32,110 nucleotides of DNA from Deltaproteobacteria bacterium. GTDB taxonomy: Bacteria; Desulfobacterota; Desulfobulbia; Desulfobulbales; Desulfobulbaceae. Positions 29,060 to 32,110 of this stretch are shown piece after piece. Location: positions 1-32,110 of the forward strand of contig JAJRQC010000157.1 of assembly GCA_024280455.1 (NCBI GenBank). The letters are read 5' to 3'. Position numbers and translations under genes: made by a program. Every line of letters begins with the position of its first letter. Position 1 is the stretch's first letter. The notes beneath the pieces were generated by a model, which searched no databases, was not told the origin of the DNA, and saw nothing but the letters and a program-made list of their open reading frames with translations.

Positions 29060-30396
29060 TTACAACAGTTCACTTGCCAGCATGGAGAGTACCGATCGTT
29101 CCCCCTTCTGCAGGGTCACGTGGGCATACAGGGGTTGCCCCTGCATCTTCTCGATCAGGTAACTCAGTCCGTTTGACTGGCTGTCAAGGTAAGGATGGTC
29201 AATCTGGTGAACATCTCCGGTAAATACAATTTTAGTTCCCTCGCCGGCCCGGGTAATGATAGTTTTCACCTCATGAGGGGTCAGATTCTGAGCCTCATCG
29301 ACAATCATATACAATTTCACCAGACTACGTCCCCGGATATAGGCCAGAGGTTCGATGACCAGTTTTTCATCGTCAATGAGTCGATTCAGTCGCTGATACA
29401 TTTCACTTTGTTCGGAAAATTGATTTCGGATCACTGCCAGATTATCATATAATGGTTGCATATATGGTCGTATCTTTGACTGGATATCACCTGGAAGGTA
29501 GCCTATATCTTTGTTGGAGAGCGGGATAATGGGACGGGCCAGCAGAATCTGGCAGTACCGCCGCCTCTGTTCAAGGGCTGCGGCAAGGGCCAGCAGAGTT
29601 TTACCGGTACCGGCCTTGCCGGAAATAGTCACCAGCGGTGTTTCCATATTACACAGGGCGTGAACGGCAAAACTCTGCTCGGCATTACGAGGGGTGATAC
29701 CGTAAACACTCTTTTCCGAATGGTGGTGATCACACTTTCCTGGGAACGAAAAGTGGAAAGCACTGATTTTTTTCCGTTGCGCAGGATAAGATACTCGTTG
29801 GGCAGCAATCGATTATCCGATTCCAGCCTATCCGGTTTTATCCCCTCCCCAGAGCGGTATAGTTCCTCAACCAGGCCGTGATCGACATTTTCGATGCATC
29901 GGCACCCCGTGTACAATCCCCTGACATCCTTTACATGATCGCTGGTATAATCCTCGGCCATCAACCCCACCGCCTTGGCCTTCATCCGAAAATTGACGTC
30001 CTTGGTCACGAGGATATAAGAACGTGAGGTGTCGCTGTGGGCGAGCTGATAGCCGATATTAAGAATTTGATGATCCGGTTTGGCGGTTGCAGGAAAATGC
30101 TGTCTCAAATCCGGGTGCAGTTCCTGTTCAAGCTTGATGGAAATTCGTCCCCTGCCGGTTCCGATCGATACCCCGCCGTTAAAAAGTTTATTGGCACTCA
30201 GGTTATCGAGAGCGCGGACAAATTCCCGGGCATGAAAATTGAGCGTCTGATTTCCTTTTTTAAAGTGATCCAGTTCTTCCAGGACGGTAATCGGCACAAC
30301 AACATCATGTTCGTCAAAGTGATTGATGCAGGAAGAGTCGTGTAGAATAACATTGGTATCGAGTATAAAGGTTTTGTTTTTGTTCACGGTGACCAT
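29060..30396 (-). pseudogene. PIN-PhoH ATPase gene broken by a frameshift
   Basis: Two halves of one fused protein lie in adjacent frames. From 30396 the first frame encodes a PIN nuclease-like domain (L-D-T-N-V-I-L-H-D, V-L-E-E-L-D, V-T-K-D-V-N) and the linker [12 protein letters not shown]. From about 29715 the protein-like sequence moves to another frame: [11 protein letters not shown], then the PhoH ATPase with [16 protein letters not shown] and T-G-D-V-H-Q-I-D. The joined product would be about 445 residues, the usual size of PhoH2-type proteins thought to act on RNA. The break is at a run of four A on the coding strand (29712-29715); one more A restores R-K-K-S-V-Y-G-I. The downstream ATG at 29647 has no ribosome site. 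This may be a real mutation or a sequencing error. Confidence 0.88.
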
Positions 30397-30580: not shown

Positions 30581-31489
30581 CTAACAGAAGCATTCTCTTT
30601 TCTTCTTCCCAGACCAGGGCTGAGTGCACGCAACATACCGGTACACCTGACTGATTTCGTCTTTTTTTACACGCGACAGCTTAAGCTCAAATGCAACGCC
30701 AAAATGATCGGGGTGCAGGATGCTGTCACTCTCTGTCCTCTCTGTCTGATCAAAAAGAAGGTGGCTGTTGGCAAAATTAAGTTTTGCCACAGGCTGTTTC
30801 TTTTCTTCCAACACAAAGATATGATCAATGCGCCGGCAGCTCTGCCTGTCTGTTGCATCACTTCCCTGAACCAATGTCGAGAACAGGCGACCGGCACTAC
30901 CAGCAAGAAAACCATCTCTTACCTTGTAGAAAGATTGTTTTTTCAACAAAGCCAGCTCTTCACCTGCAGAATTCTCAAAAAAATCTCCGCAAAACAGAAT
31001 GGCGGCAAACTGTTTGTCCATAATCGGATGAGCGAAGATGGCCTGTAGCTGTTTTCGCCGCAAACGCCCCTTGTTCTGTAGGTGGGAAAAATGAAGATTG
31101 ATAACCAGGACAGCATTTCCATCTTTCCGGATGACGGCAAACTGTACCACCGGCCCCTTATCTCCGGTCTTTGCAGGCAGGGTAAAACTCCCGCTATGAA
31201 GCATCCACACACCAGCCCCGGTTAAAATGGCAAGACCGAAAATTGATTCAATCTCTTTTTCCTGGAAAAACATCCTCTCCTGCCTTGCCGCTGAAAAAGA
31301 ACAGGTCATGCCAAGTTTCGTTGCCAGAATTCCTGCCGAACTGTACTTCCCGTCCAAGGTACAAAATGCTTCTCGGCAGCAGAGAATATCAATTTTTTCT
31401 TTCTTCAGACTACGGACCTGAAAAGCCAACTGCTGTTCATAATCACTTGCACAGTTCCAGGTATTCATCGTGGCCACCTTGATCATCAT
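30581..31489 (-). CDS. Endonuclease/exonuclease/phosphatase-family protein
   Basis: 302 residues. The EEP fold is indicated by M-N-T-W-N at the N-terminus, an acidic metal ligand in C-C-R-E-A-F (usually Q-E), N-L-H-F-S-H in the middle, G-D-F-F-E-N (usually G-D-F-N), R-R-I-D-H-I-F and H-P-D-H-F-G-V near the C-terminus. The family cleaves phosphodiesters in nucleic acids, lipids or sphingomyelin. Replacement of the conserved Asn by Phe in the GDFN motif may change activity, although an Asn follows two positions later. There is no signal peptide, so it is probably cytoplasmic. The ATG at 31489 has an AAGGAG site 4-5 bases upstream. The C-terminus ends in a short basic, cysteine-containing tail. 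Confidence 0.8.
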   Translation of the reverse strand: MMIKVATMNTWNCASDYEQQLAFQVRSLKKEKIDILCCREAFCTLDGKYSSAGILATKLGMTCSFSAARQERMFFQEKEIESIFGLAILTGAGVWMLHSGSFTLPAKTGDKGPVVQFAVIRKDGNAVLVINLHFSHLQNKGRLRRKQLQAIFAHPIMDKQFAAILFCGDFFENSAGEELALLKKQSFYKVRDGFLAGSAGRLFSTLVQGSDATDRQSCRRIDHIFVLEEKKQPVAKLNFANSHLLFDQTERTESDSILHPDHFGVAFELKLSRVKKDEISQVYRYVACTQPWSGKKKRECFC

Positions 31490-32110
31490 TTTTCTCCTTC
31501 ATGACTGAACTTTCCTAGTTTTCCGAAAGACTCTCAGGCTACCGATTTATAAAAGTTTTCAACAGCACCTCAGTTTTTTCATTTGAGCCTGCGAAGTATA
31601 GCCCTTATTCGATAAGTTCAGGTAGCGAGAAACGAGACTCCAAAATGGTCGAAGATGGTGTTGCACTCTTACGGCAATTCAATACATCGATCTTGTTACA
31701 AACAGGTTAACGCACGGTTAAGAGATTATTAAAATCACTCAATTTGGTTTTTCTCCGGTGGCGCCATGTCATAATGAATCCCATCGAAACCACAACCGAT
31801 GAGGATTCAGGTGGCAGACGGAGATCGAGCAAGATCCAGGTGCCATTGGCAGACACATATCAGGCCCCATGTCGAGTAGCAGATTATCCCCGGAACTCCG
31901 CCCTTTAACGCAGCAATTAAATAAACTGTCCCCGAAACTCCCGGAAATAGGCGAGGGAAAAAATAGGGGACAGACCACGTTTTCCATCTGACTTTTTTTG
32001 TTTCCATGCAGTTTTTTTGGAAAAACGTGGTCTGTTCCCTATTTCCTTCTGACATCTGAACCCTGGCACCTGAAATCTTTTTGACCCTACAGCGGCAGAA
32101 TATGCACCTC
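31490..32110. other. 621-bp right-edge region without a gene
   Basis: No convincing coding sequence. The left part holds the ribosome site of the leftward gene at 31489 and presumably its promoter. The right part (31837-32072) is an inverted-repeat unit: CAGGTGCCA (31837-31845) and TGGCACCTG (32064-32072) flank a longer imperfect palindrome at 31961-32044, listed separately. Open frames of 70-80 codons on the minus strand through this unit are shadows of the repeats. Confidence 0.6.
31961..32044. repeat. Long imperfect palindrome resembling REP/RAYT-associated repeats
   Basis: The left arm 31961-31986 contains AATAGGGGACAGACCACG and the right arm 32018-32044 contains CGTGGTCTGTTCCCTATT. They pair over about 26 bases with one mismatch and one bulged base, and the 31-base centre is T-rich. 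Sequences of the form GGGACAGACCACG are, as I recall, common around genes for REP-associated tyrosine (Y1, IS200-like) transposases in related bacteria. No transposase lies inside the window; one may lie beyond the right edge, or this may be a solitary copy. Confidence 0.65.

Follow-up and report, generated by a model that had tools for sequence, protein, structure and literature searches.

The window, i.e., the whole stretch of 32110 bases analyzed here, is the complete contig C2; the contig ends at position 32110 and the sequence to its right is absent. Close to this end lies an inverted repeat with arms of 23 nt each (31961-31983 and 32022-32044), which are 96% complementary and spaced by 38 nt. 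The left arm reads GGGGACAGACCACGTTTT and the right arm differs by one substitution. In the left arm, the 13-mer GGGACAGACCACG occupies 31967-31979, and the opposite strand carries a one-mismatch version at 32026-32038. On the left side, the nearest open reading frame (ORF) of annotated length (302 aa, minus strand, 30581-31489) reads away from the element and gave no NCBIfam or Pfam match at E 0.001. Beyond it, a PhoH2-like gene (29060-30396, minus strand) is split into two overlapping ORFs. The ORF at 29629-30396 matches positions 2-206 of NF053827 (427 long) and the ORF at 29060-29647 matches positions 239-423. Since these are separate parts of NF053827, the gene looks frameshifted. The parts of the palindromic element and the features adjoining it are given in Table 1.

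Table 1. Parts of the palindromic element at the right end of the window and features adjoining it. The outer limits at +8 are an analogy, taken from how conservation fades across 346 repeat ends.
Feature	Position	Strand	Basis
Whole element (outer tip, TIR arm, loop, TIR arm, outer tip)	31958..32047	.	Inverted repeat and fold
Left outer tip, 8 nt	31958..31965	-	Sequence; tip length from conservation over 346 ends
Left TIR arm: GGGGACAG head, ACCACG tail and TTTT	31966..31983	+	Sequence, inverted repeat
Inter-arm loop, 38 nt	31984..32021	.	Inverted repeat
Right TIR arm, one substitution relative to the left arm	32022..32039	-	Sequence, inverted repeat
Right outer tip, 8 nt	32040..32047	+	Sequence; tip length from conservation over 346 ends
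Truncated end-copy beyond the left end, weak trace	31945..31951	-	7-nt match, offset 16
Second TIR-like unit with another tail (GGGGACAGTTTATTTAATTGC), adjoining the element	about 31913..31933 (to 31941)	-	Sequence

The near-perfect palindrome that the original prediction placed at the right edge of the window is thus present, with arms of 23 nt instead of the approximately 26 bases it had given. As single-stranded DNA, the element folds with -22.8 kcal/mol (z -7.2), and none of 200 dinucleotide shuffles was equally stable. One arm alone has no fold of its own (-0.9 kcal/mol, with 40 of 200 shuffles as good). The prediction had also drawn in an outer 9-bp inverted repeat as a flank of the palindrome. 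This repeat (CAGGTGCCA/TGGCACCTG, at 31837-31845 and 32064-32072) does exist, but it is asymmetric, 112 nt beyond the left end of the element and 16 nt beyond the right end, and 2.5% of 5000 mononucleotide shuffles give a perfect 9-bp inverted repeat between these flanks (a post hoc test). It was not seen in the examined flanks of the copies on contigs C7 and C116 described below. We therefore leave it out of the element and regard it as a probable coincidence.

Two features adjoin the left end. The 7-nt trace of an end-copy may be chance, as a match of at least 7 nt is also found at 2.7% of control sites in the same comparison. The GGGGACAGTTTATTTAATTGC unit has one further place in the genome at up to three mismatches (C147:2587-2607; reversed control 0), where an additional repeat, GGGGACAGTATATTAAA, occurs about 120 nt further along.

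The assembly to which the window belongs is bin-like (4.15 Mb in 173 contigs), with an estimated completeness of 99.85% and an estimated contamination of 4.83%, so that contigs C2, C7, C116 and C101 need not share one organism. The 13-mer GGGACAGACCACG is found in it at 23 places with at most one mismatch (7 exact, 16 with one mismatch) versus 14 for the reversed control, and many of the one-mismatch places may be due to chance or to a related ACCCCG variant. Full palindromes, forming an element of about 90 bp, are present four times. Besides the window copy there are three more, two on C7 and one on C116, and further copies, which the original prediction had thought possible, thus exist in the assembly. 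The two C7 palindromes flank, one per side, a 326-aa ORF which, judged by eye, we take to be an M48-type protease. With several copies in the assembly, common ends and no coding capacity, the palindrome is MITE-like in these respects. By eye, the loops of the C7 copies are alike and those of C116 and C2 are different; as the loops mostly differ among the copies, recent copying from one source is unsupported.

At the C7 site, the motif is absent from all nine homologous loci (9/9) in five same-genus genomes, an absence that fits later insertion. No base-precise empty site was seen there in these five genomes, the flanks being too diverged to align, nor in genera g23 and g41, in which the flanks are partly rearranged. 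For the window site, a genus-wide search found no homologous flank. Same-genus genome G177 carries a 28-nt match to the arm at another place. The 17-mer GGGACAGACCACGTTTT occurs in 32 of the 193 genomes of the order (own genome included; reversed control 0) and in 2 of 20 genomes of one other genus. A search of a collection of bacterial and archaeal genomes with the two-armed pattern yielded at least 119 stretches, and among the 80 matches listed most were gamma- or betaproteobacteria by title, with one acidobacterium. Among plasmids, the palindrome of Pseudomonas locus L082 as query gave one weak 25-base match, and 28 records had relatives of the transposase of locus L061 (see below), all of them below 60% identity. 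Phages yielded one partial relative.

Two further repeat arrangements came to light in these genomes. Genomes of Janthinobacterium fluminis (loci L075, L090, L107, L117, and others) each contain numerous copies. In these, the arms are adjoined on the inside by sequence that is palindromic too but varies from copy to copy, so that the whole unit is one hairpin. In genus g41 (L217, L216, and others), repeats of about 32 nt with CGTAGGTCGGGTAGAG are numerous and often have inverted neighbors. Bearing GTAG, they may be a canonical REP family.

Judged by its sequence, the window palindrome is an inverted pair of terminal repeats of TIRYTs (TIR-associated tyrosine transposases; Di Nocera, 2013, PMC3733652), with the head GGGGACAG and the tail ACCACG. 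The accessible text of that paper describes TIRYTs as RAYT-like transposases with flanking TIRs, many of which have GGGGWSAS, and notes such repeats as dimers or clusters too. In the accessible text of Quentin (2018, PMC6006769), 20 out of 26 TIRYTs are assigned to subclass 2.1, a subclass that is found in 14.9% of the strains surveyed, is described as being without REP-like sequences and is named as calling for further analysis. The window element agrees with GGGGWSAS through GGGGACAG at 31966-31973. An inverted repeat bordering a Y1_Tnp gene is found in relatives, and the own genome has a broken gene with a decayed repeat. As far as TIRYTs/TIRtrons are described in the accessible text of these sources, they share with our system the GGGGWSAS head, the inverted repeats on both sides of a Y1_Tnp gene, the dimers away from genes, a protein length near 238 aa and the NHVH motif. 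They differ in the Y motif, which is YIEMNP here, similar but not identical to the published YIELNP or Y[IV]HLNP, and the L061 protein is without a C-terminal helix-turn-helix (HTH) match. Neither the clade-specific tail nor the truncated end-copies described below were found in the accessible text of PMC3733652 and PMC6006769. A literature search by short DNA strings apparently returned nothing on the repeat of the window, judging by titles and the beginnings of abstracts.

The original prediction had called the palindrome REP-like and linked it to Y1 transposases. The link holds, but the REP part does not. A canonical REP or REPIN of a GTAG-recognizing RAYT, in which each arm forms its own short hairpin with GT[AG]G at its foot, would likewise be an intergenic, inverted pair of units linked to Y1_Tnp, and the right arm does contain GTGG (32027-32030). 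However, a single arm does not fold, GTAG is absent from 31958-32047, and the GTGG lies inside the long stem, not at the foot of a hairpin, and is absent from other TIRYT tails; moreover, the neighboring genes group as TIRYTs with GGGGWSAS ends. We therefore reject this very improbable reading. Still less credible is a terminator or other regulatory hairpin of a neighboring gene, unrelated to transposition: the strong stem is intergenic and a secondary effect on transcription is possible, but many genomes have the same arm at unrelated sites as well as next to transposase genes, the ORF to the left (30581-31489) reads away from it, and copies are not confined to the ends of one gene family in the loci seen.

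Comparison with the known systems, as far as the accessible text of the sources describes them, places the element outside the REP proper. REPINs (Bertels and Rainey, 2011, PMC3116915) are also inverted pairs of short repeats with a proposed mobilization in trans by a Y1 transposase, and they also form tandem clusters, with REPINs inserted beside REPINs. In contrast, their REPs have a hairpin of their own, and their clusters consist of nearly whole REPINs with flanks, not of truncated ends with one fixed edge. Canonical REPs are served by Y1 HUH enzymes that cut single-stranded DNA beside a palindrome (TnpA-REP of E. coli and Stenotrophomonas, PMC8266576), as proposed here, whereas they depend on GTAG and a hairpin, neither of which is present in our single arm. 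The IS200/IS605 family (subclass 1.1, PMC6006769) shares the PF01797 domain and is different in having Y---Q and small subterminal hairpins, in place of YIEMNP and inverted repeats.

The Y1 link rests on the transposase genes. The own assembly has 11 Y1_Tnp matches. In relatives, Y1_Tnp genes are directly bordered by the repeat of the window; loci L061 and L214 have it at either side in inverted orientation, other loci at one side. The observation that would speak against the original prediction, a genome with neither other copies nor a Y1 transposase, is not what we see, given the three additional palindromes and these 11 matches. The GGGGWSAS-like repeats seen near the Y1_Tnp genes of the own assembly carry other tails, e.g., GGGGTCAGGTCTTGAA and GGGGTCAGATTTATTT. 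The L061 protein has 239 aa, NHVH, YIEMNP and a PF01797 domain. The proteins of L061, L042, L047 and L053 gave no HTH match at E 1, and that of L027 reached 24.4 bits for HTH_23 (cut-off 24.6).

A protein search with the L061 enzyme in 116 genomes gave a match at 1e-20 in 85 of them. In the own assembly, it revealed a cognate-like gene at C101:7848-8535 (L284) that is 68-70% identical to the L061 enzyme, lies in two reading frames and has a decayed repeat, GAGGACAGCCCACG, upstream, as well as a fragment on C31 (L033); this search found no intact cognate gene in the assembly. Both broken copies adjoin one common sequence of more than 100 nt, located downstream in L284 and upstream in L033, which resembles a group II intron end.

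A tree was built from 42 transposases out of 43 distinct hits, rows of less than 170 aa being dropped. The 15 rows labeled ACCACG (a label that also takes in the ACCCC variant) form one group, with the C101 piece inside, supported by 91/85 with the betaproteobacterial L092 and by 100/98 without it. Although the rows include copies or near-copies of one gene and 10 are without a recognized repeat, the ACCACG label needs two changes on the tree versus a mean of 12.5 after shuffling (0/500 as low), and all seven tail labels together need nine versus 23.2 (0/200 as low). The WTTTATTT label accounts for three changes, one of them due to row L287, which is possibly mislabeled by the pattern; L027 and others sit on long branches. 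The tail thus behaves as a clade label of the transposases, as far as the sequences tell. Along with its structure and its other copies, the link of its tail to one transposase clade and the broken gene of that clade in the assembly are established for the element.

We collected 346 distinct ends with an ACCACG tail from loci L001-L187, of which L149-L187 stem from the two-armed pattern scan of bacterial and archaeal genomes; L035-L039 were omitted for overlap, and ends with N or close to a locus edge were dropped. The core CGTGGTCTGTYCC was the search pattern and is hence conserved by construction. Beyond it, AAAA is conserved on the inside and a fourth C (82%) and T at +3 (75%) and +4 (79%) on the outside, and the information drops to about zero at +9. 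Between related copies within genomes (86 pairs in 14 genomes, leaving out pairs with less than 4 nt of agreement), the tips agree over about 5-8 nt and then diverge gradually.

At 56 of the 346 ends (16%), in 39 out of 150 loci, the end is repeated outward, exactly and in tandem, over 8 nt or more, compared with 94 of 5119 CCCC control sites (1.8%); a first, slightly different count gave 53/348 ends versus 59/5010 control sites. Shuffling the outer flank left a mean of 1.8 out of 346, and swapping flanks among ends a mean of 4.95 (maximum 10). The random CCCC controls contain other TIR families themselves, with duplications at 20 of the 177 sites that have a TIR-like motif versus 71 of the 4824 others. 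On the same flanks, copies at 55 of 339 ends compare with 14, 8, 3, 4, 4 and 3 of 339 after outward shifts of 30, 40, 60, 80, 100 and 130 nt, respectively, and the excess at 30 and 40 nt may stem from further copies in ladders. Ends with other tails have stacked copies in 19 out of 55 cases, some of which are neighboring ends of one array. Beside transposase genes, they are found at 7/28 upstream and 3/19 downstream ends, including both ends of L061.

Among copies of at least 12 nt (46 of 366 ends, all families), 35 of 46 reach outward to between +7 and +10; the standard deviation of this outer edge is 2.0 versus 5.4 for random sliding (0/5000 as tight). The inner start varies from -19 to -1 (standard deviation 5.0, a lower bound, since the span compared ends at -19). 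At the 8-nt threshold, control sites had a similar spread of the outer edge, so that a fixed edge finds no support in the copies counted at that threshold. The most frequent inner start, -7 (10/46), is preceded by a C and has T as its first base, which hints weakly at the cutting at CT described for TnpA-REP enzymes in the accessible text of PMC8266576. We found no report of stacked end-copies or of the tail-clade link in the literature searched, which consisted mostly of papers outside subscription. According to the accessible text of Bertels and Rainey (2011, PMC3116915), about 6 bp of the right-hand invariant sequence stay behind when REPINs are excised, which may be related to the stacked end-copies.

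The stacked copies may be the footprint of cleavage. We tentatively suggest, at less than even confidence, that the ends grow outward ladders through a fixed cut about 8 nt outside GGGG, weaker cuts inside the repeat and unequal strand transfer. Long palindromes are unstable, and a possible, if doubtful, alternative is that the copies are replication or repair errors at the long hairpin without any role for the transposase. Such errors would suit the 14 of 56 junctions that share 1-3 nt and the lack of a stacked copy at most ends (290/346). Against them, 18 junctions abut exactly and 24 have a gap, so that shared bases are not needed, the outer edge of the long copies is tightly placed, and stacked copies also occur at transposase-gene ends whose two repeats stand hundreds of bases apart. 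This makes it less probable that microhomology-driven slippage alone produced the ladders. It is less likely, though conceivable, that the transposase cuts one strand at a fixed outer site, the other strand breaks at a variable point within the stem, and the ends are filled in and joined. Such a staggered break would yield tandem duplications directly and is in line with the fixed outer edge, the variable inner edge and the junctions without shared bases, but the second break that it calls for is hypothetical.

To return to the palindrome itself, it is very probably a miniature non-autonomous element made of two facing TIRs of ACCACG-clade, TIRYT-type Y1 transposases, each with the GGGGACAG head, the ACCACG tail and an outer tip of about 8 nt. 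In a single-stranded state, e.g., on the lagging-strand template, the arms would pair into one long hairpin. A cognate Y1 enzyme would recognize head and tail on the single strand, cut near the outer tips, about 8 nt outside GGGG, and move the paired-end unit in trans. Truncated copies might be stacked when two copies of one end, e.g., on sister strands, undergo unequal strand transfer. Relatives have intact genes of the matching clade, but all cognate genes that we found in the own assembly are broken, which probably leaves the window copy stranded as a MITE-like passenger.

The window element is an ordinary member of the known TIRYT-repeat kind. The accessible parts of the literature searched held no biochemical test of the TIRYT enzyme class, and in the accessible text of PMC6006769 and PMC3733652 we found no mapped cut site or repeat-recognition test for subclass 2.1. 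The tail-clade link names matched pairs of enzyme and substrate, and from the stacked end-copies one would expect a cut 7-10 nt beyond GGGG. If this reading is true, the ladder would be a genomic record of the cut sites of a biochemically unstudied class of Y1 enzymes, common to several transposase clades and to bacteria of at least two phyla.
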